Source: Mucilaginibacter xinganensis
Lineage (GTDB): Bacteria > Bacteroidota > Bacteroidia > Sphingobacteriales > Sphingobacteriaceae
DNA: 64,000 bases
Assembly: GCA_026225055.1 (NCBI GenBank)
Contig: JAMFSA010000047.1
Span: 62,001 to 126,000 of the forward strand
Direction: 5' to 3'
Numbering within the stretch: the stretch's first letter is position 1; each line of letters opens with the position of its first letter. The translations under genes were made by a program, and so were the position numbers. The notes under the pieces were generated by a model, which worked only from the letters and a program-made list of their open reading frames with translations, ran no database searches and had not been told where the DNA came from. Shown in pieces: positions 2,357 to 35,657 of this stretch.

Positions 2357-3189
2357 AAAAAAGTAATAATGGTTAAAAATTCTTTTGATATCCGGACAAG
2401 TCTTACCTGTCGGGATTAATGGGTGAGTTTACGTGTTGTTTTTTTTATCATATGGATTATTAATTGGTTTATAAATAGTTAGAGTTACATTCAGGTTAAG
2501 AGGCCGTGCTCTACTGAAAGCGCCTCAAAAATGCCTTTGGGACATCGTTGATGTTTTCAGTCGATCGCGAAATCATTCAATGACCTGTCGCCATCAATTT
2601 TTTTGTTAAGTCAGTTATTTGATATATTTATTTATAATGGTTCTCCGCCAGGGATCGGTCAGTTGTGTAAAACTCTTGTTGTCAAACTTCAGAAATCGCA
2701 GGGACGCGAACTGTTCCAATTGTCTAAAATGTTCTTTCTAATGTTTAATATTTGCGTTTTTTATTTACGGCATAGATAAAGCCCATAAATAAATCAGATA
2801 TGCTTCGTTCAGGAAAAAACGATGGGCCTGATGTGAATGAATAGCAACTTTGGTACTTCATTGAAGAATTAAAGAACCCTGCTCACTATGGGATAAATAA
2901 GTAGTGCCTGCAGGGAGAAATGCATTTAGTGGCGGCCAGGTACGAGCCTGTACTAACATGCCCCTTATTTACGCGGTTTAGGTATTTTATAAAGAAACGG
3001 TGCTCCGGACGATTGTATTGATAAAGCCCTCATTACCCTTTCATGGCTCAACACAATAAACAATTCATAAGAAATTAGTCTAACCACGCACATTCACGAA
3101 GCGGCATAAATTATCCGGCTGCTAAACAGTATTTAATAAGTAAAAAATGGACAAAGCAAAGGGCGGAGCAGGCTGATTGACAATACATA

Positions 3190-3232
3190 CAATAGCAGTG
3201 CAGAGGAAAGTTGTCGCTCTGCATTGCTATTG
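3190..3232 (-). terminator. Stem-loop downstream of the GH30 gene
   Basis: CAATAGCAGTGCAGAG / CTCTGCATTGCTATTG arms (16 bp, one G-T type mismatch), 11-nt loop, 7 bp past the GH30 stop; no strong T-tract. Confidence 0.55.
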
Positions 3233-3238
3233 TTTACT

Positions 3239-4471
3239 TTAAAGTGATACCAATGTGGTTACACTGGAGGGTAAAAGATTGATGGCAAAACTGCCACCTG
3301 ATACGGTGATGGAATTAGCGGCAAGATTGGCCGTACTGGTTGTTGCATACCGGTTGAAACCGGTAACTGTTATCCCGCTATAGGTAAAAGGTTGGTATGT
3401 TGTCGCGTTATTTTGATTGACGATGACGACGACCAGCTTGGTCCCGCTCTTGTAAGCCGTAACATACACCCCGGTGGAAGGATTGTAGGTACAAGATATT
3501 TTACTGTAGCCAGGCCGGATGTACCGGGCGTATTGCGCCATTACATAACCAAGTTTGGTAATATTGCTGCTTTCGTCAATCGGGCCGTAGCTTCGGCGGA
3601 TATACCACCATACATATGCAGCCCAGCCTGCGTTCATGCAGTCGTTGATTTCCTTGCCTGCCGTCATTGCATTGTTCCAGTCATCCCCGCTGACACTTGA
3701 ATTGGTATAATGTTCAGTCATCCAGACCGATTTGCTGATACTCCCCAAGTTATACGGAGTGACACCGTAAATATGCCCGCAGACAAAACTGGTGTTCGAT
3801 TTTGCGGTAGCATTACTAAGATAAGTATTAATGAAAGTCTGGTCCATATTGAAAGGCTCGGGCGCCATTATTGGAGCGCCGCAATTAGTTCCCTGCGCCG
3901 CAACAAAATTTGCCACCTCTGTTGCTGTAGCTTCCATCCACCCGGACCCACTATAGTTAGGTTCGTTAAAAGGGCTGATGGCGTAGACCCCGCCGACGGC
4001 ACTGTTATAGGAACTTAAATAAGATGCATATGCGGCGTATGAACCGGTGTTCAGGTGGACGCCTGTCATCATGCTGGACGGTGCGTTCCATGCTGTTGCA
4101 ACCACTTTGGCGCCATAGCTTTTCGCGGCATCTATGGTAGGTTTTTCAGCTGCGAAACTTCCGGAACCGGTGCTGGGGACCATTACACGAAGTATGCTCA
4201 AGCCTATGCCGTTGGTGGTAGAAAAGGCCTCCGTTCTTTGGGTACTGGTTAAATCAGCTTCCCAGGCTAAAATACTCGCACCGCCAAATCCCTGGACTGT
4301 CTGTTGGACGGTGCCGGCATTGATCGCAGCTGTACCTGAAACATTTGCGCTTAAGGATGTAGCCGTACCTGCATGTCGCAGTTTCGGAGAATTTGGAGTC
4401 TCCGAATCATTTTTGGCGCAACCTGCAAAAAGCACTGCTGCGACCCATAAAGGAATTAGTTTTCTTTTCAT
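3239..4471 (-). CDS. GH30-family glucuronoxylanase-like lipoprotein
   Basis: Lipobox FAGC; QTVQGFGGASILAW, TAWNAPSSMM, SPFNEPNY, WMTEHY, GWAAYVWWYIRRSYGPID motifs typical of GH30 (subfamily 8-like). Confidence 0.85.
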   Translation of the reverse strand: MKRKLIPLWVAAVLFAGCAKNDSETPNSPKLRHAGTATSLSANVSGTAAINAGTVQQTVQGFGGASILAWEADLTSTQRTEAFSTTNGIGLSILRVMVPSTGSGSFAAEKPTIDAAKSYGAKVVATAWNAPSSMMTGVHLNTGSYAAYASYLSSYNSAVGGVYAISPFNEPNYSGSGWMEATATEVANFVAAQGTNCGAPIMAPEPFNMDQTFINTYLSNATAKSNTSFVCGHIYGVTPYNLGSISKSVWMTEHYTNSSVSGDDWNNAMTAGKEINDCMNAGWAAYVWWYIRRSYGPIDESSNITKLGYVMAQYARYIRPGYSKISCTYNPSTGVYVTAYKSGTKLVVVIVNQNNATTYQPFTYSGITVTGFNRYATTSTANLAANSITVSGGSFAINLLPSSVTTLVSL

Positions 4472-4603
4472 AAAAGTGGTAAATAAAGGTTAATTGGATC
4501 GGCAGGAATTATTCCTGTCTCGATGTAAAATTATACCGTTGCGTTCGCCAGCGATATCACAAAATGCTTATTTACTAAGCTAAATGTTTAATGAAATTAA
4601 AGG

Positions 4604-4721
4604 GGACTGCCTCAAAAGTCCGGGAATAACCTCTATTCTTTACTTTATTCGGATAGTTGTGCGGAGAACGTTTTCATACAGACAATTCTCAGTGACGTCG
4701 ATTTTACTTTTGAGACAGCCT
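4604..4721. repeat. Small (118 bp) element bounded by imperfect inverted repeats, MITE/IS-remnant-like
   Basis: GGACTGCCTCAAAAGT (4604-4619) and reverse complement of ACTTTTGAGACAGCCT (4706-4721), 13/16 matching; resembles IS ends of the type GAGGCTGTCTCAAAAGT. Confidence 0.45.
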
Positions 4722-4828
4722 CATCTCATTTGCCTTTTTATCAAATTCATTCGGATTGTCAAAATCAATTCCGGTTTTCAAGCATTTGCTTCGCTCATTA
4801 AGTAAGTGATCTGGTGATCTAAAAGAGT

Positions 4829-5218
4829 CTAACGACTTAGATTACAGATTATGACGTAAAGTAAACCACGAAGCTTTGCTTCATTAAATACGGGGAAACA
4901 AGTGCCACAATATTTTCTGTGGGATTTAAATAGTATGGCATCTTTATAATATAAAATGCAGATAATTGTAATGGTTAATCTCACCAAACTTGTTAAGATA
5001 TAAATGACGTTTTTATTCAATAAGGCTATTGCAGGAGACAACCATTCCGGTATTTCCTCATCGGGCAGATCAACTTTGCAATTGATAAGTCGGAGGTTAT
5101 CTATGCCATCCTCAGTATTTATAGTATAGGCAATCGGGATAGATACCTGTTTTCCAGTGGCTTGTAAGTGGATTGATATTGAAACTGCTTTTTCCATATG
5201 TCCATTTTTACCTGTCAC
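4829..5218 (-). CDS. Hypothetical protein, possibly a remnant; start overlaps the GH127 stop (ATGA)
   Basis: 129-aa ORF with ATGA overlap; no recognisable family. Confidence 0.3.
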   Translation of the reverse strand: MTGKNGHMEKAVSISIHLQATGKQVSIPIAYTINTEDGIDNLRLINCKVDLPDEEIPEWLSPAIALLNKNVIYILTSLVRLTITIICILYYKDAILFKSHRKYCGTCFPVFNEAKLRGLLYVIICNLSR

Positions 5219-7566
5219 ATTTTACTTGTTAATATCCGTACATCAGTGATATCCGCTGTCTGCATTCCGTTGGTCGCCAGGAATTCGACAAGCAAGGGAC
5301 CCTTTATGTCCGGCGGCAATGTATAATCGGCGCTGATGGTACTATTGGCTGTATCTGCTTCCATCTCAATATGTGCCACTTTTAATTTGTTGACGAGGAT
5401 ATCAAAGGAACACTTTACGGTGGAGGAGCGGTAAGCAATATGCAAAGTCCTGGCTAAGGGTGAGAAACGCATCTGATAGCTAAAAGTGCCCGATGCATAC
5501 CGCCAATGCGAGTTATTGTTAAAGCCGGATTGGCTGCTGTTGAGCTGCAAATGATGGTCAACCTCAGACTGCTGTTCTCCGGGTGAAACCTGGTCAATGG
5601 TCCGTGGGGCTAATTTGAGATAAGTTTCATCCAGCGCGACAAGCTCTGCTTCTTTTTCGCTGATACTGTCTTTAACGGTAATTGGCCAGTAGAGCATATA
5701 CCGCGTGTCATGGACGCGATAGAACGGGATAAGCTTCAGGTTTTTAAATTGCGGCTGCAGGATCATATCGCTTATTTCAAAAGTCATTTCCCTGGAGCCT
5801 TCTTTTTTAAGACCGGAAGCAGGGTTATTCCCCGTTTTAACCAGCAGCGGGGATTTTGTCAACGCATATAAAGGTCCCCCTGCAATATGTCCCCAACGGC
5901 TATCATTAGCAAACAGGCCGCTCATGTTTGTGGTATCCGTTGGTGCTGCCAGAACGATCGGACCATGTAAAAATGATATCCAGTCGGAGTGGTCCGGCAG
6001 GTATTCCGTATAATTTTTCATGGGTAGCATGACAGTCACCTTATCGCCTTTATGCCATGTACGGCGGATGCCCGCATAGTTCCCGTGGCCGTTTTCAGGC
6101 AGCACCTTCCCATTGACTTTCAGGACAAATCCCCCATCAATGACCCAATAAGGTTTCCTGACAAATAAGGTAAATAATTTTGGTGAGGTTACCTCTACGG
6201 ACAGGGTTGTTTGTTCCTGGTCAGGAAATCCATTCTGCTGTATGAGCCTAATGCCCTTATCCTTCCAGTTCAGCACCGAAGGTATGAACAGGTTTAGGTA
6301 AATGTCGTTATTTTTATGCGTATAGATCAGTTCGCCATACTTTCCATGGTTTTCCATGCCCGTGCCTACACAGCACCAGAAGCTCTCATCGGCAGTGGAA
6401 TACACCCGGTAATGCTGCGGGTGGATCGGCGTAAAATACACGAACCCGCCGGCGCCGGGGTGTTGGGAAGACAGGATATGGTTATAAAGCAGCCTTTCGT
6501 AAAAATCCATGTATTCAGGTTTGTCCTCATCTAAGAACAGCATCTTAGATAGTTTAAGCATGTTATTGCTGTTACAGGTTTCAGGGCCCTGTTCCGATTC
6601 GATCATCGGCGAGAAATTATCAGTTGGGTTGAAGTGTTCGCGAACGCTGTTACCGCCGATCGAAATGCTGCGGTTGCGTACGACTGTCTGCCAAAAAAAG
6701 CGCGCGGCAGCAGCATAACTGCTGTCGTTGCTCAGTTCGGCTATCCGCTCAAAGCCTATTACTTTAGGTATCTGTGTATTGGCGTGCAGGCCGGTTAGCC
6801 TGTCTTCATGGTTCTCCAGTGGATCCAGAATTTGGTGCTGGCAGAACCTTTCTGCCAGCACCAAATATTTATGGTGACCCGTAATGGCATAAGCGTCCGC
6901 CAGCACTTCGTCCATCCCGCCTTGCTCGGTGTTGAGCATTGTTTGCATTTGCTTTTCACTTAAGCCGCTTGTTTCGTTATATGCCCAGTCGGTAAGTTTT
7001 AGGAATTCCTGCCGGGCCTGTTCATTGCCCGCCAGTAAATAGCAATCGCGCAAGCCTGCAAACAGTTTATGCAGGTTGTACCAGGGTACCCACTTTTTAT
7101 TGAATTCGCTGAAATCACCCAATTTAAACTGTGCCCACATGTGCATGCCTCCGGGAACGCCGCCTATATACCCGTTTCCATTCTTTTCCTGGCAGCGGCC
7201 AAGCTCACTTACCATATAGTCGAGGCGCCGTTTACATTCATCAGATTTTGTTGCCGCATACATTTGTGCAAGCGCGGTAAGGTAATGTCCGCCGGTGTGG
7301 CCGTCAAGGCCGGTGCTTTCCCAGTTGCCATAGCTTTTCGCTTTCGGTTGCAGGCCCGCTTCACGCAGAAATGGGGCCAACAGCCTGTCGGGTTCCAATT
7401 TAAGCATATATGCGAGGTCAGTCTGCTCTGCCGAAAGAAAGGGGCTTTGCAGCAACCGGACGTCGGAAAGTTTAAAAAGCAGCATTTTGTTGGACTGGCC
7501 GAATGTCGGTGTAAAAAGGCCTGCGGAGAGAATGACTATCAGTGTCTTTAAATGAGATTTTTTCAT
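5215..7566 (-). CDS. GH127-family beta-L-arabinofuranosidase-like (DUF1680)
   Basis: Signal peptide; FKLSDVRLLQSPF, LDGHTGGHYLTALAQMYA, NTEQGGMDEVLADAYAITG, ESEQGPETCNSNNMLKLSKMLF, WCCVGTGMENHGKYGELIYTH. Confidence 0.9.
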   Translation of the reverse strand: MKKSHLKTLIVILSAGLFTPTFGQSNKMLLFKLSDVRLLQSPFLSAEQTDLAYMLKLEPDRLLAPFLREAGLQPKAKSYGNWESTGLDGHTGGHYLTALAQMYAATKSDECKRRLDYMVSELGRCQEKNGNGYIGGVPGGMHMWAQFKLGDFSEFNKKWVPWYNLHKLFAGLRDCYLLAGNEQARQEFLKLTDWAYNETSGLSEKQMQTMLNTEQGGMDEVLADAYAITGHHKYLVLAERFCQHQILDPLENHEDRLTGLHANTQIPKVIGFERIAELSNDSSYAAAARFFWQTVVRNRSISIGGNSVREHFNPTDNFSPMIESEQGPETCNSNNMLKLSKMLFLDEDKPEYMDFYERLLYNHILSSQHPGAGGFVYFTPIHPQHYRVYSTADESFWCCVGTGMENHGKYGELIYTHKNNDIYLNLFIPSVLNWKDKGIRLIQQNGFPDQEQTTLSVEVTSPKLFTLFVRKPYWVIDGGFVLKVNGKVLPENGHGNYAGIRRTWHKGDKVTVMLPMKNYTEYLPDHSDWISFLHGPIVLAAPTDTTNMSGLFANDSRWGHIAGGPLYALTKSPLLVKTGNNPASGLKKEGSREMTFEISDMILQPQFKNLKLIPFYRVHDTRYMLYWPITVKDSISEKEAELVALDETYLKLAPRTIDQVSPGEQQSEVDHHLQLNSSQSGFNNNSHWRYASGTFSYQMRFSPLARTLHIAYRSSTVKCSFDILVNKLKVAHIEMEADTANSTISADYTLPPDIKGPLLVEFLATNGMQTADITDVRILTSKM

Positions 7567-7574
7567 TTTATCAG

Positions 7575-8249
7575 TTATGTTATCGGTAAGCCAGGTAACT
7601 TGTCCGCTTTTACTGCAGGCTGCCCGGAAGCCCCGCGGTTTGCAGATGGTTTTGCCGGAAGGTTTTCCGGGTCATGACCTGCCTTAAGCGCGGCAGCATC
7701 CGGGTCAGGTGAGAACTTGACTTTGGCCGCCTGCCTGAAGATACGTTCCCGGGTTGCCGGCGCAACCGATGCTGTAGGTGAAAAGGCCCGGCTGACGGTG
7801 GACGGGGAAATCCGCAGGGTTTTAGCTATGGTATAAATGGTTGGCTTTGAGGAACCGTTTTTTTCACTGTTACGGGCGACAAGGTTCCTGGCATTGTTAT
7901 TCAGCTCATAACCCATCTCTGCTGCCGCTGCTAACACCTTTGCCGTCGTTTTTGGGGAAACTGTTTCTGAACGTTGTAATGCGCGGCATACCGTGCATGC
8001 TGAGATATTCAGCCGGTTCGCCAGATCCCGCATGGTCACCCTGCCGTTTGTAAGAGGATCAGCGGCAACAATATTTTTTTTGAAATAACCTTTGTATCCT
8101 GCCGCAGCAGCTACGTATGCCCGTGTTGCGGGTTTGACTTTCGGATGCCCGTTTAGCGCCTGGCTTACGGTCGACGGGGACAAGTGTAAAAAGGCCGCCA
8201 GTTCCGCCAATGTAATTTTCTTTTTAGGTTTGACCTTTTTCTTCTTCAT
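7575..8249 (-). CDS. Sensorless regulator with three tandem LacI-type HTH domains
   Basis: Three LacI HTH signatures: ITLAELAAFLHLSPSTVSQALNGHPKVKPATRAYV; VTMRDLANRLNISACTVCRALQRSETVSPKTTAKVLAAAAEMGYELNNNARNLVA; TIYTIAKTLRISPSTVSRAFSPTASVAPATRERIF. No periplasmic-binding-like domain. Start MKKKKVKPKKK at 8249 preferred over the ORF-track start at 8390. Confidence 0.85.
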   Translation of the reverse strand: MKKKKVKPKKKITLAELAAFLHLSPSTVSQALNGHPKVKPATRAYVAAAAGYKGYFKKNIVAADPLTNGRVTMRDLANRLNISACTVCRALQRSETVSPKTTAKVLAAAAEMGYELNNNARNLVARNSEKNGSSKPTIYTIAKTLRISPSTVSRAFSPTASVAPATRERIFRQAAKVKFSPDPDAAALKAGHDPENLPAKPSANRGASGQPAVKADKLPGLPIT

Positions 8250-8291
8250 ACTAATCGGCTTACAGAGTACAGGCAAATGTCCCGGCTCACC

Positions 8292-8353
8292 TGCAGGATC
8301 CCGCAAAGACAAACTCTGCTGGATCCTGCAAGTCCTGTCAGCGGGAGATCCTG
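8292..8353. promoter_or_regulatory. Candidate operator array upstream of the triple-HTH gene
   Basis: TGCAGGATCCCGCA (8292-8305) and TGCTGGATCCTGCA (8317-8330), plus a degenerate third GGGAGATCCTG (8343-8353); GATC centres at 8298.5, 8323.5 and 8348.5, i.e. 25-bp spacing. Confidence 0.5.
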
Positions 8354-8476
8354 TTATAGTCGCTGTTCCTGACGTGAATAAAATTATCATATGCAGACGG
8401 CATTGAATTGCTCTATTGTCAAAACTTATACATTAAATGTTCAGAGACGGGCCCGGCTTATCCGGGTTCCGGTTTA

Positions 8477-10435
8477 TTAAGGCCGATCGGTGCGGAAAGG
8501 AGAGGCAGGCAATCCCGCGTTGTTTATTAAATTCGCTCCTTCAGGGTTATCTGCCCAGGCATACCTGACATAAACGGGCTGCTGAACCTCGCTGCTGCTG
8601 ACGACCACCTGATCACCGGCAATCCGGGCTTCGGCCCAGACGAAGTGTTTATCCGGCCCGGCAATGGCAAAACCGGCCAACGGGCGGCTATCCGCTGTGG
8701 CCAGGCCACAGCCCACCTCATTGAAAGTAACTGTGATCCGGTCGCCGCTGACCCGTGCCGATTGAAAAAGGGGCCCCGATGCGATCACCTGCTGATCAGC
8801 GTAAGCCACTTTTTCAGCGGCCAGCGCCAATCTGTCTCCAACATCTTTTTTATCCAGGGGGTGAATGTCGTTCCATTCCCCTGTTCCGATAGTTACCGCC
8901 ATCGCGGTATTTGGCAGCGAAAGCGCCCTGAACTGTGCTTCCCTGATTTCCGCCCAGGAACTTTCGGACGGCGAATACTGCACTTCTCCGAAATTTGGCA
9001 ACTGGACGATCAGAAAAGGCAGGTCGTTTCTTTTCCAGCCATAGCGCCAACTGCTGATCAGTGTCATCAGCAGCTGGCGGTAATCCCGGCTGCCGGTGTT
9101 CGACTCGCCCTGGTACCAAATGATGCCTTTAACAGCGAAGTTCAGCGCCGGGGCCACCATGGTGTTATATAACCCCGCAGGTTCGTTCTGCGGTGAAAAT
9201 TGCAGGTCACCACCCGTTCCGCGCATATTGCGGGAAGGCGGGTAAACGAGCCCGACCTGGTAGGTCCAGTCGCCGCGCAGATCAATCTTCGTTTGTCCGT
9301 CTGTTAGTTCATAACGTTTGTCGGGTACAAAGCCGCCTTTCCCTGCTGGGTTGGTGACACGTACGACGATTTGGTTTTTGCCTTCCTTCAGCAATCCTGC
9401 CGGCACATCGTAGCGCCTGGGCGGGTACTCATAAGTCGTATTACCGACAAGCCTGCCATTCAAATAGGTTTCGTCGGCATTGACGATCCGGCCTAAAAAC
9501 AGTTTGGCTGGCTTGCCTGTCATTTCAGCCGGGATATCGAATTCTTTCCGGAACCAGACGATGCCGTTCAGGTCACGAACCCCCTGATCGGCCCAATAGC
9601 CGGGCAGCCAAAACCGGTGCCAGTTGTCGGGTACGTAAGCCGGATCGTACCACTTGACATCGGCCGACATCCCCCTGTCCTGTCCGGTGAAAAGCCGTCC
9701 CGCGGCTCCGCCGGAGTGCTCCGGGTGCAGTGCGTGCTTCATAAAGGCCGAATCATGAAATTGTGCCAGCCGCTGCGCGTAACCGGCTATCCCTTTGATG
9801 CTATCTTCGCTGATCCAGGCTTGTATGGGTGTGCCGCCGATGCTGGAATTGATGATACCGATGGGTACATGATACCTGGCAAAGAGCTGTTTGGCAAAAA
9901 AGTAAGCCACCGCGCCGATGTCCAGTATATGCTCACTGGTGACGGTGGTCCAGTTGCCCGGCGGCAGATCATCGTGCACCCGCTGAACATCTGCCAGGGT
10001 GGGTACGAAGAAATACCTGATCCGGGGGTAGTTTGCACCGGTGATTTCCCCGGGATATTTTTCTTTAACCCGCTCCATTTTGATCGTCATATTGGATTGG
10101 CCGGAACAAAACCAGACATCTCCTATCAGAATGTCCTGAAGTAAGATGCGGTTATCGCCCCTGAGTTCCATCCGGTAAGGGCCGCCCGCATGCATTTCCG
10201 GCAATACCGCAAACCATTTGCGGTCGCCGCCGGTGCGGGCGCTGATCCTTCTCCCGTTAAACGTAACAGTCACTTTTTCGCCGGGCCTGCCCCAGCCCCA
10301 TAAATTAATTTTGGCATCCCGCTGAATGACCATACCGTCCGCAATCAGTTGCGGCAGGCGTATATCAGCCCTGGTGCTATTACACTGAAATAAGGCTAAA
10401 ACGAGTCCTAAACAAAAAATGAGTAATTTTTTCAT
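8477..10435 (-). CDS. Sialate O-acetylesterase-like (SASA/SGNH) carbohydrate esterase with inserted beta-sandwich domain
   Basis: IGDVWFCSGQSNM, GIINSSIGGTPIQAWIS, IIWYQGESNT, IHPLDKKDVGDRLAL motifs; signal peptide. Confidence 0.85.
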   Translation of the reverse strand: MKKLLIFCLGLVLALFQCNSTRADIRLPQLIADGMVIQRDAKINLWGWGRPGEKVTVTFNGRRISARTGGDRKWFAVLPEMHAGGPYRMELRGDNRILLQDILIGDVWFCSGQSNMTIKMERVKEKYPGEITGANYPRIRYFFVPTLADVQRVHDDLPPGNWTTVTSEHILDIGAVAYFFAKQLFARYHVPIGIINSSIGGTPIQAWISEDSIKGIAGYAQRLAQFHDSAFMKHALHPEHSGGAAGRLFTGQDRGMSADVKWYDPAYVPDNWHRFWLPGYWADQGVRDLNGIVWFRKEFDIPAEMTGKPAKLFLGRIVNADETYLNGRLVGNTTYEYPPRRYDVPAGLLKEGKNQIVVRVTNPAGKGGFVPDKRYELTDGQTKIDLRGDWTYQVGLVYPPSRNMRGTGGDLQFSPQNEPAGLYNTMVAPALNFAVKGIIWYQGESNTGSRDYRQLLMTLISSWRYGWKRNDLPFLIVQLPNFGEVQYSPSESSWAEIREAQFRALSLPNTAMAVTIGTGEWNDIHPLDKKDVGDRLALAAEKVAYADQQVIASGPLFQSARVSGDRITVTFNEVGCGLATADSRPLAGFAIAGPDKHFVWAEARIAGDQVVVSSSEVQQPVYVRYAWADNPEGANLINNAGLPASPFRTDRP

Positions 10436-10474
10436 AGTGGTTTTCCCGGTTAAGTGGTCTGGCTATTGTTCCGC

Positions 10475-11536
10475 TTATTTTACGAACGGATCAATCAGGG
10501 CAATACTTCCGTCTGCACGGTGGTGAAGAAGAGCAACTTTAATGTTCCGCAGATGCGTTTTGCCGGAAAGCTGCGTGTCATGGTAAAACAAATACCAGGT
10601 ACCTTTGAAATCAACGATGGAATGATGGGTTGTCCAGCCCTGAACCGGCTTCAAAAAGATCCCTTTATAGTAAAAAGGTCCGTAAGGGCGGTCCCCGATA
10701 GCGTAGGCCAGGTAATGCGTGTCCCCTGTCGAATAGGTGAAATAATATTTACCGTTATATTTGTGCATCCACGATCCTTCGAAGAACCGCCGGTCATGGT
10801 CTTTTCCCAGCAGGGGCTTTCCTGCCCCATCGAGAATAACCACGTCATGCACCTCCCCGTCAAATTGCTTCATATCAGGCTTTAGTTTGACCACCTTGCA
10901 GTTCAGCGCCGGCTGATTATCCTGCTTAAGGTCGGTTTTGGAGCCGTTCGGATCGTATTTTCCCGTGGCCCAGCGCTGCAGCTGCCCGCCCCAGATGCCG
11001 CCGAAATACATATAAGCCTGGCCGTCGCTATCCGTGAACACTGCCGGGTCGATACTGTAGCTCCCTTTGATTGGTTCTGGCTCAGCCCTGAACGGCCCCG
11101 CCGGATTCCTGGAGGTAGCCACCCCGATCCGGAAGACATCCTTTTTATCTTTCGCAGGAAAATACAAGTAATAGGTGCCGTTTTTGTAGGCGCAGTCGGG
11201 CGCCTAGAGCTGCCTGCCTGCCCAGGGGATATCTTTAAGGTCGAGCGCTATCCCATGATCGGTAGCCGGGCTGTTTGCGCTGGTCATGGATAAAATATGG
11301 TAATCATGCATAGCGAAATGATCGCCCATGTCATTTTCTGGAATGCCGGCATCGATATCATGTGAGGGATAGATATAAATCTTTCCCTTAAAAACATGCG
11401 CGGACGGGTCGGCCGTGTAGATCGATCTGATCAGCGGCTGGGACAGGTATTGCCGCTGGGACTGCGCAGCAGTGATCGCCGGAACGAGCAAAGCCGCCGC
11501 GGTGATGCACTTTGATATGATAAATTTTCTTTTCAT
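10475..11536 (-). pseudogene. GH43-family glycoside hydrolase interrupted by one in-frame TAG (11204-11206)
   Basis: ...DLKDIPWAGRQL*APDCAYKNGTYYLYFPAKDKKDVFRIGVA...; both halves in the same frame. Paralogue at 29636 reads MWAPDCIERAGKYYFYFPA, so TAG replaces Trp. Confidence 0.85.
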
Positions 11537-11551
11537 AAAGGGTTATTTAGA

Positions 11552-13714
11552 TTAATTGATTCCTTGTCCGGGCACCCCCGGGAATTTCAGGGATTTATAA
11601 TAATTCAGGTCGTGTTCCGGTTTTTCATAGCCGGGCGGTATTGGCATCTGGGAAAATGTCTGGAAATAAAGTACACAGGCATCCCTCCAGCGGACTGCTT
11701 CTTCATATTGGATAGCCAGCAGTTGCTTTACTGCGAGGAAGCGCTCGCTGTCTACATAGCTTTGTAGCGTATCCCAACGCCGTTGCAGCTGTTTTACCGA
11801 ATCAGCTCCGGCATAATAATGACCGACCATCTCCTGCCATAGCGTTTTTCCTGACCGCATTTTATACCGCCAGCTCAAATGGTGGAACCATAACAGGTAT
11901 TCATCGGGGCAGGTTTCCAGGTTTTCAAAGCGTGCACGGACCTGCGGCGAATATTGCGCCAACGTATTGCTGCCGCTTCTTGTGCGGTCAAATCCGATCC
12001 CGCCCGTGTCCGCCTTGTGGTAATAGACGGCCGTCCAGTCCGCCCTGGCCATGTTGTCGGTCCAGGGACCAGGCCCGTAATGACCATTGGCGCTCATGAT
12101 GTGGTGCAAACCAAGCGGTGTCATGTAATTCACGGTATTTTCACGGGAACGGAGCATTTCCTGTTTCATGGGTTCGACAAACCGGAGGTCATTCGTAAAT
12201 GTCATGCGGAGCCAGTCATCGGCAATGTCAGACGCGGACTGTTGCGGATCCCAGGACAACCTGCCGAAGCTATACCAGTTGGCCTGCGCGAAGGGATGCC
12301 CGCACCAGTTGATATCGGTTCCGATATTGGCTACGCCTGCCATCCCGGTAATCAACCGGGGATTGTATTTTCCTTCCAAAATAGCAGAAACTGTGCTGTT
12401 TTTCCCCATCATGTAAGTGTCGGAATTCAGGCATTCGTTAAACAGCGGAGCCTCATAAACTAGGTGTGTGGAAAACCCGAGGTATTCCTGTGTCAACTGT
12501 ACCTCCATCATGACCGGAGTATGGGGGAGCGCCCCGAACAGGGGGTGAAATGGTTCCCGCGGCTGAAAATCGATGGGGCCATTTTTCACCTGGATGATCA
12601 CATTATCTTTAAACAGCCCGTCCAGCGGCTTAAATTCATTGTAGGCTTGTTTGGCCCGGTCATCCGGAACCTTATCGTCATATACGAATGCCCGCCACAT
12701 CACTATCCCTTTATGCGGTGCAAGTGCATCTGCCAGCATATTCGCGCCATCGGCATGGCTCCTGCCATAGGTCTGCGGACCGGGTTGTCCTTCCGAATTG
12801 GCTTTAACGAGAAATCCGCCAAAATCCGGGATATAGCCGTAAATCTCGTTCACTTTATTTTTCCACCATTTCATGACAACGGGGTCAAGCGGGTCAGCTG
12901 TGTTCAGGCCGCCAAGTTCTACCGGACTGCTGAATTTCACCGAAAGATAAATCCGAATTCCATAAGGGCGAAAAGCATCGGCCAATGCCTTGGCCTTGAT
13001 CAGGTAGGCGGGTGTCAGCATCTGGACGCTGGCATTGACGTTATTAAGCACCGAGCCGTTTATGCCTACAGAAGCGTTTGCCCGGGCATAGTCCAGGTAA
13101 CGCGGATCAATATATCCGGGAAGTTTATGCCAGTTCCAGATGGAAAAACCCGCGTAACCGCGCTCGACTGTTCTGTTAGGGTTATCCCAGTGATCCAGTA
13201 TGCGGAACATGGTTTTCGGGTGTTCCCTGATATCCAGGGCACCGAGCTTTCTGTTTGTTTGTAAAAGCCTGAGAAAATAGAACGTGCCGTACAAAATACC
13301 TTTGTCGGTATTCGCGGTCAGCAGGATTTTTCTGTGACCGGCCTGACCGATGGTCTTCAGCATAAAACCCTCTGTTCCGATTTCTTTTGCTGCGTCCTGG
13401 GGGACCGATCTTTGCAGCGCCCCTAGTTTATCGATCGTTGCCACGACCAGACCACTTTGCGCGGCAGATCCGGATTGGGAAACCGGCCCGATTAGTCCGG
13501 AAAGTCCCCGGGTCAGTTCGGTTTGGGCAGCCTTTAGCCGGTCCGACCCGACCGGGAAATAAATTTCCCGCAGGTAACTACGGTATTGCGCGCGCAATAC
13601 CCGGTCCTTTACCGGATAGTACCTCAGCCAAAGGTCATAACCATTTTCGGCGAATACAGGCTGGCCCAGCCAGCATACAGCTATAGCGAACAGCGCAATA
13701 AAAGGTCGTTTCAT
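11552..13714 (-). CDS. GH67-family alpha-glucuronidase
   Basis: Signal peptide; YDLWLRYYPV, RILDHWDNPNRTVERGYAGFSIW, GINGSVLNNVNA, DFGGFLVKANSEGQPGPQTYGRSHADGANMLA, WCGHPFAQANWYSFGRLSWDP. Confidence 0.95.
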   Translation of the reverse strand: MKRPFIALFAIAVCWLGQPVFAENGYDLWLRYYPVKDRVLRAQYRSYLREIYFPVGSDRLKAAQTELTRGLSGLIGPVSQSGSAAQSGLVVATIDKLGALQRSVPQDAAKEIGTEGFMLKTIGQAGHRKILLTANTDKGILYGTFYFLRLLQTNRKLGALDIREHPKTMFRILDHWDNPNRTVERGYAGFSIWNWHKLPGYIDPRYLDYARANASVGINGSVLNNVNASVQMLTPAYLIKAKALADAFRPYGIRIYLSVKFSSPVELGGLNTADPLDPVVMKWWKNKVNEIYGYIPDFGGFLVKANSEGQPGPQTYGRSHADGANMLADALAPHKGIVMWRAFVYDDKVPDDRAKQAYNEFKPLDGLFKDNVIIQVKNGPIDFQPREPFHPLFGALPHTPVMMEVQLTQEYLGFSTHLVYEAPLFNECLNSDTYMMGKNSTVSAILEGKYNPRLITGMAGVANIGTDINWCGHPFAQANWYSFGRLSWDPQQSASDIADDWLRMTFTNDLRFVEPMKQEMLRSRENTVNYMTPLGLHHIMSANGHYGPGPWTDNMARADWTAVYYHKADTGGIGFDRTRSGSNTLAQYSPQVRARFENLETCPDEYLLWFHHLSWRYKMRSGKTLWQEMVGHYYAGADSVKQLQRRWDTLQSYVDSERFLAVKQLLAIQYEEAVRWRDACVLYFQTFSQMPIPPGYEKPEHDLNYYKSLKFPGVPGQGIN

Positions 13715-13759
13715 AATAGGTGTTTATGCGGGCTGAATTATCTGCCGGAATTTCTTACG

Positions 13760-13802
13760 CAATCGATTGTAAAGATAACAACGTTTGCTGAGGATCACCA
13801 AA
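13760..13802 (-). promoter_or_regulatory. Candidate GH67 promoter with adjacent palindromic operator
   Basis: On the minus strand: TTTG (13802-13799), 21-bp spacer, TATCTTTA (13777-13770, near Bacteroidota -7 TAnnTTTG), then CAATCGATTG (13760-13769). Confidence 0.5.
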
Positions 13803-14250
13803 TTGGTACATAGGGTGCAACTATTCCGGAAACACCCCCTGGTTTTTTAACAGGATAACAAAGATGGCCGGCGCTGATGTGCTGTTGTTTTTATAATTCC
13901 TTGAATTACAGTTGATTTATGGTGCTTTTGGGTATGTAACGACGGGTCGTAGACTTCGGGTGCCGTGGTTGATCCTGCCTTTGGGCCCATGATCAGGGGC
14001 AGCCGGATGAACATTTGTGATAGAAATTTGGCAATTTGTTAGTACCTGGAGCTTGATATAACGGCTTTCGGGCTGTCCGGGCCGCCTACCCGGCACCTAT
14101 AAAGCGGGCAATCCGGAGAGAACGCCAGGGGCGCACAGGCTAATCATACGCCCGGATCCCGCCCGCGCTTTTTGCGGTGGATCTTTTATTTGCTTTAAAT
14201 ATTTGGTTACATGTATTTTAAAGAAAAAAAAACCGCAGGAAGCAGTTCCT

Positions 14251-14275
14251 GCAATCGATTGCTTTTGTATATTTG
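14251..14275 (+). promoter_or_regulatory. Candidate HTCS promoter -7 element with abutting perfect palindrome
   Basis: GCAATCGATTGC perfect 12-bp palindrome (14251-14262) just upstream of TATATTTG (14268-14275), an exact TAnnTTTG match. Confidence 0.5.
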
Positions 14276-14348
14276 TGTGAATTACCAATTACCAGATAAC
14301 CGGCGACCAGCGCTTTTTTAATCATAGTATTTTTAACTAAAACAATCG

Positions 14349-17300
14349 ATGCAGAAATTCCGGACAGGATATTTATTGTTAAGTCTATTGCTTTGTTGTA
14401 CGTTTGGCAGCTCAGCGGCTAACGGTGATATCAATTTCACAAACATTACCGTAAAAGAAGGCCTGCCTTCGAACACGATCTATGCCATCCTGAAAGACAG
14501 GTCAGGGTTGATGTGGTTTGGTACGAACAACGGGCTTTGCAAGTTTGACGGCACTAATTTCGTCGTTTACCGGCAGGTGCCCGGGAAGGCGAATACACTG
14601 CCCGGAAATGAAGTATTGTGCCTGTATGAGGACAGGGCCGGGCGATTATGGATAGGGACCAGTGAGGGCGGCCTTAGTTATTACGACAGGACGAAAGACC
14701 GGATCGTTCCTTATCGGGGCGACGGTTCCTGGCCGGAGCTCGCGCATGTTTCACCTAGGGTGATCCTGCAGGACCAGCAGGGGAAGTTATGGATAGGTAC
14801 CTACGGTGAACTCAGAACCATTGACCTGGGAACCGGGAAAATAACCAGCATACGCCTGGCCGGCATCATCAAAACAGGGGAAGAAAACTTCGTTCCGCTT
14901 TCATTGCTGGAAGACGGCAAAAAACAGATATGGATAGGTACCAATCATGGGCTTTATGCTTACAATGCGGCGGGTAAAAGCCTGACCAGGTTCATTAACG
15001 ATCCCCATGATCCGGGTAGTTTGTCCAGCAATGTCGTTAAATCCCTTATTGAAGACAAAAACGGAGATATCTGGGCGGCTACTCTGGACGGCCTGGACAA
15101 AATATTGCCTGGCGGGCGTTTTGAGATCTTCAGGCACCGGAACGGTTCCCTGAATTCTTTGAGCAGTAATGCTTTGTTTACCATGAAAATAGATAAGGAT
15201 GGCAAGCTTTGGATCGGGACGGAGGACGGTGTCGATATTTTCGACCCCCGGTCGTCATCATTCCAGGTTATGCGGCCGGATCCGAGAAATGTTTTCAGTT
15301 TGAAGAGCCAGTCGATCCGCAGCATTTTCATTGATCCTGACGGCATCTATTGGGTAGGCACATTTGGGGGCGGGCTGTCTAAATATGATGAAAATTTGCC
15401 ACTATTTAACCTGAAACAGTATGATCCGTTTGACCCGTCAGGCTTAGGTTCCACGATGGTCAATGCATTTGCTGAATATAAGGATAACTCGGTTTTTGTG
15501 GCAACAGACGGGGCCGGGATTCAAGTTTTCAATAAAAAAACTGGTCTGTTTACACACCTTAACGTCAGGAGCAGGCTACAGAATTCCGCGACAGGCTTAA
15601 CCGTGTGGCCATTATACATCGATCATGCAGGTAATCTGTGGGCCGGAACCTATCACGACGGACTGTTCCGCATCGACCTCCGCACAGGAGGTTTCGAGCA
15701 GTTCGTTGCCGGTGGGGATGCCGGCGCGTTGACCAGCAATGATATTACCACGATCATGGAAGACGGGAATGGCAGGATGTGGATCGGTACTTTGGGCGGC
15801 GGGGTGAATATTTATGATCCGGTCAGGCATCGATTCAGCCGTTTTTCACAGGAATTTCACCAGGCGCTGCCGCTGAACGCATTCATCAGTTACATCGCTA
15901 AGTCGCCGGCGGGGGACATCTGGGTATCGTCTGCGGGAACAGGTATCGCTGTTTATAACCCGGCCACCCGGGAAATGCGGCACTACACCAAAGCGCAGCA
16001 ACATCTGCCGGACGATGTGGTGAACCATTTATTTTTTGACCATGACGGAACCTTATGGATTTCGACCCAGAGCGGCATGTGCCGTATGGATAAAAGGAGC
16101 GGACTGGTGACGACCTTTACTGAAAAAGACGGACTTGCCGATGATATGGTTAAAACCATACTGGAAGACAAGACAGGATTGCTCTGGATCAGTACCGCCG
16201 CCGGTATCAGCTCTTTTAACAAACACACCGGTAAATTCCGGAACTTCGATGTCCAAAATGGCGTTCAGCAGGGCTCCTTTTCCAACGGTGCGGGTTTGAG
16301 GCTTTCCAACGGCGATATCTATTTTGGCGGACGGGACGGCTTTAATTTTTTTCGCCCGGCAAGTCTCCAGTATAGATCCGGCTCCGGCTCCGTTTTGTTA
16401 ACTGACCTGAAGGTGAGTAACGAATCCGTGGTACCCGGAGAAAACGCCCCGATCAAAGATCAGATAGCCGTTTCCAAAGAAATCAACTTAAAGTACGGCC
16501 TCAATTTTTCGATCAGTTATGTGGCTGTCAATTATACGGCGCCGCTGCAGAATCAATTCGCCTACAAACTTGTCGGGTTCGACAAGGAATGGAATTATGT
16601 GCACAAAAGCCGGACGGCGAATTATACCAATATCGATCCCGGCACCTATACGTTCGAAGTCAGGGCCAGTAACGATGGCGAGCATTGGAGCGATCCTCCT
16701 ACAGCTATCACGATAACTGTATTCCCCCCGTTCTGGCGCACCAGGTATGCCTATGCCTTCTATATTTTCACGGTCGGGCTGGTTTTATTTTTGCTTAGGC
16801 GGAGGGGAATTCAAAATATCAGAAATGAATTTGAAATTCAACGGGAGAAAATGGAATTCAGGCTGTTGCTGGACAGGGAACGGCGCGAAGCTGAACAGTT
16901 GCACGAGTTGGATCTTTTAAAGATCAAATTTTTAACGGACCTCAGTCATGAGTTCCGGACGCCGATATCGCTTATTATGGCACCTGTTGAAAAGCTGCTC
17001 CAACGCAAACCTGCCTGTGAGGAACTGGAGGATGTCCGTATGATCAGCCGGAACGCGAGGCGGTTACTGAACATGGTCAACCAGCTCCTGGATTTTCGTA
17101 AGATGGAGGAACAGGAGCTCAGCCTTAATTTGAGCCCGGGAGAGATCGCCGGCTTTATCAGGGAAGCCGGCGAATCCTTCAAAGATGTGGCGGCAAAAAA
17201 GAAAATTACGTTCACGATAAAAACGGAATGCCCGTGCTGCTGGGCTTCCTTTGATCATAACAAGCTGGAAAGGATCCTGTTTAACTTATTGTCCAATGCT

Positions 17301-18551
17301 TTCAAATTCACCCCTTTGGGAGGCGAGGTGACATTGATCATGGAGATGATCGATATCCCTGATGCCACTGCGCACCTGATCATTACGGTAAGCGATACCG
17401 GCGTAGGTATTCCTGAAAAGGATATCACAAAAATATTTGACCGGTTTTATCAGCATCAAACCAATACCATACTCAACCAGGGGACAGGCATCGGGCTGTC
17501 TATCACCAAGGAGTTTGTTGAGATGCATGGGGGAAGCATACATGCGGAAAGTCAACCTGGGACAGGCAGCAGTTTTGTTGTTGACTTGCCGTTGGTCACT
17601 TATGCCTGGGAAGTAACGCTTAAAGGCCCGCCAGGCAACGAACTGAATGAAAGTATGACGGATACAGCACAGAGTTTTCTAATAGGCCACGCAGAGGACC
17701 ACGTGCAGATGGACAGCGCCGGCATGGCAGGTCCCGACAGGAACACCACCATTTTACTGGTGGAAGATAATGAAGAATTTCGCGCCTATCTGGCCAAGCA
17801 TCTCTGCAAATATTACCAGATCGTTGAAGCGGCAGACGGCAAGCAGGGCTGGCAAAAGGCGCTGAGCGCACACCCGCAACTTATTGTGAGTGATATCAAT
17901 ATGCCAGTTATGACCGGTATAGAACTGAGCAGGAAAATCAAGGATGATAAACGTACGTGCCATATCCCTGTGATACTGCTGACGGCCATGGCCGGTGAGG
18001 ATGACCAGTTGAAAGGCCTGAAATCGGGTGCCAACGACTATCTTTCCAAGCCCTTTAATTTTCAGATACTGAATACCAGGATCGAAAATCTGCTTAATCT
18101 CAATAAAAGCGTAAAAGATACCTATTCAAAGCAGATCCAGTTGGACGGGCATGACATTGTCACCGAATCAGGTAATCTGAAGTTGCTGAATACTATTCTT
18201 AAGTATATCGAAGATAAGTTAAGTGATCCGGATATGTCGGTTGAGGAACTCAGCAGGCATATAGGCATGAGCAGGGGCTCGCTCTATTACAAATTAATCG
18301 AGCTCACGGGCTTATCGCCGATAGAATATATCCGGACTGTCAAATTAGAGAAAGCCGCTACCCTAATGGAGACAAGTGAGTTGAATGTTACACAGATCGC
18401 TTATATTACTGGGTTCGGCACACCGAGTTATTTCACCCGGATGTTCAAAAATAAGTACGGTGTCGTTCCGTCAGAATACTTAAATGCCAAACGGCCGACA
18501 CCAAAGCCGGTCATTTATCCATCCATGAGTTATTCCGAAAAGACGTCCTGA
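14349..18551 (+). CDS. Hybrid two-component system regulator (HTCS)
   Basis: Signal peptide, repeated propeller motifs (GLMWFGTNNGLCKFDG, LWIGT...), Y_Y_Y-like domain, HisKA (LSHEFRTPISLIMAP), HATPase, receiver (ILLVEDNEEF...IVSDINMPVMTG) and AraC HTH (VEELSRHIGMSRGSLYYKL...ITGFGTPSYFTRMFKNKYG). Confidence 0.97.
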   Translation: MQKFRTGYLLLSLLLCCTFGSSAANGDINFTNITVKEGLPSNTIYAILKDRSGLMWFGTNNGLCKFDGTNFVVYRQVPGKANTLPGNEVLCLYEDRAGRLWIGTSEGGLSYYDRTKDRIVPYRGDGSWPELAHVSPRVILQDQQGKLWIGTYGELRTIDLGTGKITSIRLAGIIKTGEENFVPLSLLEDGKKQIWIGTNHGLYAYNAAGKSLTRFINDPHDPGSLSSNVVKSLIEDKNGDIWAATLDGLDKILPGGRFEIFRHRNGSLNSLSSNALFTMKIDKDGKLWIGTEDGVDIFDPRSSSFQVMRPDPRNVFSLKSQSIRSIFIDPDGIYWVGTFGGGLSKYDENLPLFNLKQYDPFDPSGLGSTMVNAFAEYKDNSVFVATDGAGIQVFNKKTGLFTHLNVRSRLQNSATGLTVWPLYIDHAGNLWAGTYHDGLFRIDLRTGGFEQFVAGGDAGALTSNDITTIMEDGNGRMWIGTLGGGVNIYDPVRHRFSRFSQEFHQALPLNAFISYIAKSPAGDIWVSSAGTGIAVYNPATREMRHYTKAQQHLPDDVVNHLFFDHDGTLWISTQSGMCRMDKRSGLVTTFTEKDGLADDMVKTILEDKTGLLWISTAAGISSFNKHTGKFRNFDVQNGVQQGSFSNGAGLRLSNGDIYFGGRDGFNFFRPASLQYRSGSGSVLLTDLKVSNESVVPGENAPIKDQIAVSKEINLKYGLNFSISYVAVNYTAPLQNQFAYKLVGFDKEWNYVHKSRTANYTNIDPGTYTFEVRASNDGEHWSDPPTAITITVFPPFWRTRYAYAFYIFTVGLVLFLLRRRGIQNIRNEFEIQREKMEFRLLLDRERREAEQLHELDLLKIKFLTDLSHEFRTPISLIMAPVEKLLQRKPACEELEDVRMISRNARRLLNMVNQLLDFRKMEEQELSLNLSPGEIAGFIREAGESFKDVAAKKKITFTIKTECPCCWASFDHNKLERILFNLLSNAFKFTPLGGEVTLIMEMIDIPDATAHLIITVSDTGVGIPEKDITKIFDRFYQHQTNTILNQGTGIGLSITKEFVEMHGGSIHAESQPGTGSSFVVDLPLVTYAWEVTLKGPPGNELNESMTDTAQSFLIGHAEDHVQMDSAGMAGPDRNTTILLVEDNEEFRAYLAKHLCKYYQIVEAADGKQGWQKALSAHPQLIVSDINMPVMTGIELSRKIKDDKRTCHIPVILLTAMAGEDDQLKGLKSGANDYLSKPFNFQILNTRIENLLNLNKSVKDTYSKQIQLDGHDIVTESGNLKLLNTILKYIEDKLSDPDMSVEELSRHIGMSRGSLYYKLIELTGLSPIEYIRTVKLEKAATLMETSELNVTQIAYITGFGTPSYFTRMFKNKYGVVPSEYLNAKRPTPKPVIYPSMSYSEKTS

Positions 18552-32642: not shown

Positions 32643-35600
32643 ATGAATTTGCTTATAGAGATACCTATGAACGATCGCGCTAATAGAAGTCCTTTGGGAC
32701 ATTGTTTAAGGGCCTTTACTGTTGCTGTATTATTAATTACTGTCAGTGCTTTATCAATGGGGCAGACGGTCGTAAGGCTCAAAGGTAGGCCAGCTGTCTA
32801 TAGCCAGTATAAAGTTGCCGGAAAAGCATTTATGATCGCTTCCAGCGGCGTTTCGGCACCGATCTTAGTGGACCCGGGAGACTGGAAGGGCGTTATACGC
32901 GCTGCGGGCGACTTTGGGGATGATGTCCGCAAGGTCACCGGCACAGCGTCCCAGGTTATTCAAGACGGTACCCTTGGTAAACATTCAGTTTTGGTGGGGA
33001 CTATCGGTAAAAGCCGGATCATTGATCAGCTCATCGCTGAAAAAAAAATTGATGTTACCTCTATAAGGGGCAAATGGGAATCTTTCCTGATCCAAACGGT
33101 AGATGATCATCTGGTCATTGCGGGGAGCGACAAACGCGGGACTATTTTCGGTATTTATGACCTCTCGGAAAAAATTGGGGTATCGCCCTGGTACTGGTGG
33201 GCTGATGTGCCCGTAAAAAAAAGTAAAAGCCTGTATGTGGAAGCCGGCCGATTTGTACAGGAATCCCCCAAGGTAAGGTACCGGGGGATTTTCATCAATG
33301 ATGAAGACCCGTCATTTGGGGGCTGGGCGCGTAATAAATTCGGCGGAATTAATTCAAAAATGTATGTTCATATTTTTGAGTTGTTACTGCGCTTAAAAGC
33401 CAACCTGCTATGGCCTGCTATGTGGGGCAAGTCCTTTAATGAGGACGACGTGTTAAACCCGGTTTTGGCGGATGAATATGGGATAGTGATGGGTACATCG
33501 CACCACGAGCCGATGATGCGCGCTCAGAAAGAATATACCGACAGGAAAAATGACATAGGCGATTGGGATTATACTACCAACGCCGATAACATCAGGACGT
33601 TTTGGACGGATGGACTGGAACGGAACAGGCACTTTGATAACCTCATCACCATCGGCATGCGCGGTGATGGTGACGTGGCTATGGGCAAAGGCAACGATGC
33701 GGACAACATGCAGACCTTGAGCAAGGTCGTCGCTGATCAACGCGATATTATCAGTAAGGTCTATCATCAGGACAGCGCCGAAGTTCCGCAGGCGTGGGCG
33801 ATATTTACTGAAGTACAGCGCTATTATGATGCAGGTTTTACTGTTCCCGATGATGTAACCCTTTTATTTTGTGATAACAACTAGGGGTATATCAGGCGAA
33901 CTGGCCCGCTGAAGGAACGGGAGCGTAAAGGAGGCCTGGGGATCTATTACCACATTGACATGAATGGCGGCCCCTGGAACGACCGCTGGATAAATACGAC
34001 CACCCTTCCCAAATTACACGAACAGCTTAACCTGGCCTATCAAACAGGGATTAACCGGGAATGGATCATCAACGTGGGCGACCTTAAACCTAAAGAGTTG
34101 CCTATTGATTTTATCATGCATTTTGCCTGGGACCCGGATGCCATTCACGCAAATGAGACCCGCCATTATACGGTTAAATGGGCCGGATCGATATTTGGAA
34201 AAAAGCATTCCGCAGCAATTGCCGATATCGTTTCGAAGTATGCCAAATATAATCTCTGGCGAAAACCTGAAACACAGGATCCGCGTATCTTCAGTTTCGT
34301 GAATTACCATGAAGCGGATCGCGAGTTTAAGCTATGGAGCAGCTTGGAAGGCCGCGCTGAAGCATTGGGAAAGGAGATTGCCCCCCGGGCCGTGGACGCC
34401 TATTACGAACTGGTACTATATCCTGTAAGGGCTTCTGCGGGCGTAGCCGAAATATATCTGGATGCGGGACGTAATAATTTATATGTAAAGCAGGGAAGGG
34501 TGAGCGCAAACTATTATGCGAAGCAGGCCCGGGATCTTTTTGATACCGATCAGCAGTTAAGTAATTTCTATAATGATACCCTGGCCGGGGGCAAGTGGAA
34601 GCATATGATGTCTGATGTTCACATCGGCTACCGGCAATGGTCCATGCCCCGCCAGAATCAGCTGCCTGAACTTAAGCAGGTGGTGCCGCTTACTGCCCCG
34701 GCAATGGGCGTTGCCGTTGAGGGCAGCGAAGAGGCCTGGCCGGGCAGTATGGCGAAAGCTGAATTGCCTGTATTTGACGCGCTAAATAAACAGCATTATT
34801 TTATCGACATCTTTAACCGCGGCACCGGTCCGTTTAAGTTTACCGCAAAAGCTGATCAGCCCTGGGTGAAAATCAGCCGGGCTAAAGGGACAGTCGATAA
34901 ACAGGATTTGCGGCTTAATGTGGACATTGACTGGAAAGCCGCCCCGGCAGGTAAAACACAGGCGATTATCGAAATTCAGCAAGGTAATATACAGGTGCCT
35001 GTGGCCGTTACGCTTATTAGCAGCACACTGCCGCATGTGAGGCAGCCTTATTATGGGGGCTGGGGAGAATTTTCCATTCCCGCGCAGCAGTTTAAGGTCA
35101 ATAAGCCGGGAAGGCAGGCCAGATGGATAGTCCTGCCTGATCTTGGCAGGGATGAGGCAGGCATGGGGATCGATCCGGTTACCGCCCCGAGTTCCACACC
35201 GGGATCGGCACCCGTACTGGAGTACCGCATTTTCCTGCCTGATACCGGCGGCACCAAAGTGTGCCTGGGTATTTTACCAACACAGGATGTAAACCCGCGC
35301 CGGGGGTTAAGAATTGCGGTAGCGATAGATGACCAGGTGCCGCAAATTATCGACGCCCGCAAAGGTTTTCATGACGAGTTCAATGAATATACCCCAGCCA
35401 GCCTGGCTATGTCGCCAGGGTTGAAGCCCTTGCCGCCATTAGGCCCGGATTATGCACTTGTTTCGCGCGCCAGTCCCCGCCGGAATGAGGTGTTTGATAA
35501 TTTAAGATGGCTGGACGTGGAACTGGAAGTGAAAAAAGCTGGAATGCACCAATTAAAGGTCTTTATGGTTGACCCTGAAGTAGTATTGGAAAACATCGTT

Positions 35601-35657
35601 GTCAATCCCAGCGACAGGTACCCGAGTTATTTTGGCGCGCCACCGGTGAAACACTAA
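32643..35657 (+). pseudogene. GH115-family alpha-glucuronidase interrupted by one in-frame TAG (33882-33884)
   Basis: ...VTLLFCDNN*GYIRRTGPLKERERKGGLGIYYHIDMNGGPWNDRWINTTTLPK...; both halves in the same frame; the conserved GH115 motif CDNNWG indicates Trp at the TAG. Confidence 0.88.

Follow-up and report, generated by a model that had tools for sequence, protein, structure and literature searches.

The DNA analysed here (the window) is a stretch of 64,000 nucleotides from Mucilaginibacter xinganensis (assembly GCA_026225055.1, contig JAMFSA010000047.1, positions 62,001 to 126,000 of the forward strand). One strand of the window carries a run of genes in the order GH67 - GH43 - SASA esterase - triple-HTH gene - GH127 (GH: glycoside hydrolase family; HTH: helix-turn-helix), and a hybrid two-component system (HTCS) gene is divergent from GH67. 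The triple-HTH gene is the subject of this report: its product, a protein of 224 amino acids, was confirmed to consist of three LacI-type HTH domains without an effector core. The gene is read from an ATG at 8249 to a stop codon at 7575-7577, and its parts are as follows:

7575..8249, minus strand: triple LacI-type HTH gene, 224 amino acids, no effector domain (open reading frame, three PF00356 matches, homologue in Mucilaginibacter rivuli)
8082..8216, minus strand: HTH domain 1, residues 12-56, no hinge helix (PF00356 at 8085-8183, tree, structural model)
7872..8039, minus strand: HTH domain 2 and hinge, residues 71-126 (PF00356 at 7905-8036, headpiece scoring, structural model with a hinge helix at 118-130)
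7680..7844, minus strand: HTH domain 3 and hinge-like segment, residues 136-190 (PF00356 at 7704-7841, structural model with a helix at 183-189 of low pLDDT, the per-residue model confidence)
7578..7679, minus strand: C-terminal tail rich in Pro, Ala and Lys, residues 191-224, modelled with low confidence (without counterpart in the M. rivuli homologue)

Domain content and reading frame

The whole 224-amino-acid protein scored 90.2 bits against PF00356 in a Pfam scan, with three stretches matched. In a six-frame search of the whole genome (window coordinates were obtained by subtracting 62000 from the genome coordinates), the domains scored 28.2, 41.1 and 28.6 bits from first to third, and each passed the 27-bit cut-off alone, which bears out the three LacI-type HTHs of the preliminary description. 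The absence of an effector domain, also proposed there, was upheld: no periplasmic-binding-like core family was found among the 25 best families listed in Pfam and NCBIfam scans, and the full-length NCBIfam LacI models aligned to the protein over the HTH and hinge only. About 34 residues are left after domain 3, which is too short for an effector core. An effector domain hidden by a frameshift was considered and ruled out, because the next gene downstream is an intact, complete GH127.

The triple-HTH frame had a coding-like codon score of 0.12 per codon, resembling that of its neighbours, compared with -0.22 and -0.03 for the two other forward frames and -0.21 to 0.02 for the reverse strand. 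A possible upstream extension of the frame to 8390 scored -0.15 and was not coding-like, which supports the start at 8249. The protein is strongly basic, with 38 lysine and arginine residues versus 13 aspartate and glutamate residues.

Homologue searches

When 301 genomes of the family were searched at the protein level, a single further protein, in the same genus, matched over most of its length. This homologue, from M. rivuli HMF5004, has 197 amino acids, three LacI-type HTHs (32.0, 40.6 and 41.2 bits against PF00356) and no core, and is 39-40% identical to the window protein. Among 151 genomes of the genus the window protein and the M. rivuli protein were the only triple-HTH proteins found. 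No third member was obtained when profiles were run against samples of 401 genomes for the order, 399 for the phylum and 297 for the class (these samples overlap, and only the best candidates per genome were scored), nor from a protein search of 270 more genomes of the phylum. When genome contigs were scanned, the window protein gave no match, and the profile gave the M. rivuli protein as the sole full-length, high-identity match. Every other LacI HTH checked in 13 genomes of the genus sat in a full-length frame (330-392 codons in the 12 related genomes and 338-381 codons in the own genome). Proteins of the triple, coreless form are therefore real, if rare: a separate three-domain homologue in a second species is the strongest evidence against a chance arrangement, and the protein is probably a genuine sugar-blind regulator and not a broken gene. 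No relevant description of tandem or triple LacI HTH proteins was found in the open-access literature.

Spread by mobile elements was rejected as an origin. The M. rivuli homologue matched no phage record and neither protein of the pair matched viral contigs; the plasmid matches listed covered at most 54% of the query and were mostly annotated as ordinary LacI proteins. Separately, short contigs of Arthrobacter sp. M4 carry two 242-codon frames (L120 at 4197-4922 and L124 at 2641-3366), both with a single LacI HTH; these are shorter than a normal LacI and are perhaps truncated or disrupted.

Hinge segments, predicted structure and domain relationships

In LacI, a leucine of the hinge enters the DNA minor groove. 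Hinge-like segments follow domains 2 and 3 of the window protein, as the preliminary description had read, and none follows domain 1; the minor-groove leucine is present after domains 2 and 3 and absent after domain 1 in both the window and the M. rivuli proteins. The retained leucines suggest that minor-groove insertion is still under selection in these two domains.

Structures were predicted with AlphaFold2 on a two-row alignment. Each model contained three helical HTH units (block-mean pLDDT roughly 65-85), a helix behind domain 2 and a weak one behind domain 3, with the relative orientation of the units left undefined (predicted template modelling score, pTM, 0.35 and 0.32). For the window protein the two additional helices lie at residues 118-130 and 183-189, the latter at low confidence. 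A structure search with the model gave weak matches only (E above 0.08), of which most of the top-ranked were LacI-family proteins, and adds little.

Of the six ways in which the domains of the two proteins can be paired, the one in order (1 with 1, 2 with 2 and 3 with 3) gave the largest summed score, although some single best matches lay off the diagonal. A headpiece tree (panel drawn from earlier matches and biased to good ones) paired the two domains 1 with a support of 0.82; their clade, which has a support of 0.999, also includes two full-length LacIs of a different genus within the family. Domain 3 of one protein likewise paired with domain 3 of the other (support 0.70), and the placement of domain 2 was not settled by the tree. 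The window protein has the same domain order as the M. rivuli protein, and this order is supported for domains 1 and 3. Window domain 2 scored best against XylR-type headpieces, a LacI group related to a xylose-type LacI encoded elsewhere in the same genome (contig C212).

Locus context

GH127 starts at 7566, leaving a gap of 8 bp to the triple-HTH gene. These coordinates and the Pfam assignments agree with the place given to the gene in the preliminary description, within a run of xylan-directed carbohydrate-active enzyme (CAZyme) genes and 8 bp before GH127. The neighbouring features are as follows:

11552..13714, minus strand: GH67 alpha-glucuronidase, first gene of the run (Pfam)
10475..11536, minus strand: GH43, interrupted by an in-frame TAG (Pfam)
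8477..10435, minus strand: SASA-type carbohydrate esterase, next upstream neighbour of the triple-HTH gene (Pfam)
8250..8476, minus strand: leader of 227 bp separating the SASA esterase and triple-HTH genes, present once in the genome
5215..7566, minus strand: GH127 beta-L-arabinofuranosidase, 8 bp beyond the end of the triple-HTH gene (Pfam)
14349..18551, plus strand: HTCS regulator, divergent from GH67 (Pfam)

In M. rivuli the gene occupies another position in a locus of this type, flanked by GH10 (divergent) and HTCS (convergent) genes. This locus also holds GH67, GH43 and SusC/SusD-like genes (the last named by eye from sequence). Between the window and M. rivuli, identity is 76% for GH67 and 47% for HTCS. 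In another genome (G321) the GH67-GH43-esterase order is kept with no triple-HTH gene behind it; the triple-HTH gene is therefore probably an addition to a conserved run.

A pattern scan of the 227-bp leader found no T-run terminator on the strand of the triple-HTH gene, and Rfam gave no match within 7400-14600. The leader was also considered as a dispersed repeat, which was ruled out by its single copy in the genome. Within the leader, positions 8290-8375 contain several copies of CAGGA/CAGGATC and an inverted repeat (GCAGGATCC...GGATCCTGC), which were not seen before the M. rivuli gene; this may possibly be an autoregulatory site, or chance.

Candidate operators

The usual form of a LacI-family operator is an even palindrome with a central CG (PMC4052901). 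The gene of the own-genome LacI on contig C212 (L161, 343 amino acids) has mannonate dehydratase on one side and xylose isomerase on the other, and TGCAATCGATTGCA is present in its promoter; orthologues of this LacI adjoining GH67 in other Mucilaginibacter genomes (64-65% identity) have the same type of sequence. The related pattern TGCAAYCGRTTGCA, with up to two mismatches, occurs at two sites only in the 64-kb window, where about one site is expected by chance, and both sites lie in the 634-bp GH67/HTCS intergenic region:

13758..13771: candidate LacI-type operator TACAATCGATTGCG (GH67 strand, 2 mismatches), 43 bp upstream of the GH67 start codon
14250..14263: candidate LacI-type operator TGCAATCGATTGCT (1 mismatch), 85 bp upstream of the HTCS gene

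Two sites were obtained in none of 20000 single-base shuffles of the intergenic region. The site at 13758-13771 is kept in sequence and position in three other genomes with differing flanks. Across the genus, a candidate operator (up to two mismatches) was present within 200 bp upstream of 24 of the 30 GH67 genes examined.

As a separate observation, a perfect palindrome, TGAAAACGTTTTCA, stands about 50 bp ahead of the genes for the full-length LacIs closest to domain 1 (L174, position 7557, and L175, position 7781); this is likely an autoregulatory operator of different sequence.

Comparison with known systems

The LacI/GalR repressors (LacI, PurR, CcpA; PF00356) resemble the window protein in their LacI-type HTHs, and their hinge with its conserved leucine has counterparts in its domains 2 and 3. 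They have one HTH and a periplasmic-binding-like core for effector binding and dimerisation, whereas the window protein has three HTHs and no core. Since this defining core was tested for and is absent, the window protein is not a full LacI/GalR repressor, yet it is built of LacI parts. The XylR-like LacI of contig C212 has a headpiece among those most like domain 2, and its operator type recurs at the promoter region of the triple-HTH cluster; it differs in having one HTH and a sensor core within its 343 amino acids. The isolated lac headpiece HP62 (PDB 1CJG, 1L1M), to which M. rivuli domain 3 gave a match, likewise consists of the LacI DNA-binding domain and hinge without the core, but it is a laboratory fragment with one HTH, of which two molecules bind each operator.

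The nearest layout met in the open-access literature is that of Cbp1 of the Sulfolobales, a small sensorless protein with three HTHs on short linkers, which binds CRISPR repeats with its three tandem domains aligned along one DNA site (PMC10883916); this layout was compared from the published description only. Cbp1 differs from the window protein in being archaeal and in having another function.

Proposed function and alternative explanations

DNA binding by LacI headpieces is, in textbook accounts, dependent on a dimerising, ligand-sensing core. Isolated headpieces bind weakly, and two must cooperate, normally through that core. The protein derives from DNA-binding domains of the LacI family, has no sensor, and has been retained in some xylan loci of Mucilaginibacter. 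Two of its headpiece-plus-hinge units share one chain, so a single palindrome could be bound by domains 2 and 3 as a pair, and this pairing would stand in for the dimerisation normally given by the missing core. Domain 1 would be accessory, providing more affinity, contact with a neighbouring half-site, or a second specificity. Judged from the sequences, the most likely target would be the TGCAAYCGRTTGCA-type operators that the cell's own xylose/glucuronate LacI uses, among them the two candidates that flank the divergent GH67/HTCS promoter of the triple-HTH run.

The protein would be made when the run is transcribed and, because it has no sugar sensor, the result would be inducer-blind feedback repression, or competition that dampens the expression of xylan enzymes; feedback repression is possible because the gene is encoded in a run whose promoter region carries candidate operators. 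Our reading, held tentatively and at somewhat less than even confidence, is that in the xylan regulon the protein may occupy LacI-type operators as a competitor or feedback repressor blind to inducer, with domains 2 and 3 as an intramolecular headpiece pair. The competitor or silencer role put forward in the preliminary description thereby gains two candidate operators in the promoter region of its own cluster, to which such a role can plausibly be tied; operators of this kind are common before GH67 across the genus.

Several findings weigh against this feedback or competitor reading. Window domain 1 has Gln at the position equivalent to Arg22, and window domain 2 has Cys for Ser21. In M. rivuli no TGCAAYCGRTTGCA-type site (up to three mismatches) was found near the triple-HTH gene, and the nearest exact operator of that locus is about 34 kb off, ahead of the first gene of the xylan cluster. 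A second own-genome LacI (contig C221, L170), 38% identical to the C212 LacI and adjoining xylose isomerase (xylA) and xylulokinase (xylB)-like genes (named by eye), also has TGCAATCGATTGCA in its promoter; the motif is thus not specific to one regulator, and more than one LacI may use the palindrome. The 227-bp gap ahead of the triple-HTH gene leaves co-transcription with GH67 uncertain.

Divergence of the headpieces would fit a protein directed to sites unrelated to the TGCAAYCGRTTGCA operator, its specificity shifted by altered headpieces: the recognition-helix changes in domains 1 and 2, the non-XylR-like domain 1, which groups with LacIs whose promoters carry TGAAAACGTTTTCA instead, and the lack of an XylR-type site near the M. 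rivuli gene all point that way. Domains 2 and 3, however, keep a largely intact TVSR-type recognition helix together with the hinge leucine, and we regard a different target as distinctly improbable. Were the target the TGCAAYCGRTTGCA operator, the protein might instead sit on it without blocking RNA polymerase and displace the full-length LacI, so that induced xylan genes are kept on by positive feedback. Such a decoy or anti-repressor draws on the same operator and architecture evidence as feedback repression, and the sign of regulation cannot be told from sequence; we consider it unlikely.

A protein that organises DNA or forms loops by bridging distant sites, such as the two operators across the divergent promoter, is about as improbable as a different target. 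Three headpieces per chain could engage two or more half-sites, the distance of 492 bp between the operator centres corresponds to 46.9 turns (10.5 bp per turn), the protein is strongly basic, and Cbp1 provides a precedent for the layout (PMC10883916). The helical phasing is a single datum, and the protein is very rare in the genus, unlike abundant nucleoid proteins. The preliminary description had supposed an operator array, for which three sites would be occupied; two sites and no array were found, and the array is further weakened by the non-equivalence of the three domains, of which domain 1 has no hinge and clusters with another LacI subgroup. Two further proposals made there, binding without dimerising and a general role in organising DNA, gained no support. 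If the protein were a non-functional leftover of fused LacI fragments, its rarity and fast divergence (39% identity versus 76% for the linked GH67) would be accounted for, and the neighbouring GH43 does have an in-frame stop; against this stand an intact open reading frame in two species, the same three-domain order, the kept hinge residues and coding-like codon use, and we judge a remnant very improbable.

Returning to the inducer-blind competitor or feedback repressor, a wider claim is also conceivable, though rather unlikely: an undescribed sensorless LacI-derived class, in which a two-headpiece pseudo-dimer on a palindrome would be combined with a hinge-less third headpiece of different origin and second specificity, to form an inducer-blind feedback layer over LacI and HTCS control. 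A natural protein of three headpieces and no core would show how cells occupy operators in the absence of both dimerisation and ligand control, and the regulation of polysaccharide loci would gain a layer blind to inducer. The protein is small, has a candidate operator pair and lends itself to direct testing.

In-frame TAG codons in CAZyme genes

The in-frame TAG of GH43 (11204-11206, minus strand) replaces a Trp found in five related genes. In-frame TAG codons were also seen at 33882-33884 (gene 32643-35657) and at 53382-53384 (gene 52311-54806), in genes that we take to be GH115-like and GH95-like, respectively. These may be pseudogenes, polymorphisms or sequence errors; in all three CAZyme genes the reading frame continues on both sides of the TAG, and other genes end normally in TAG.
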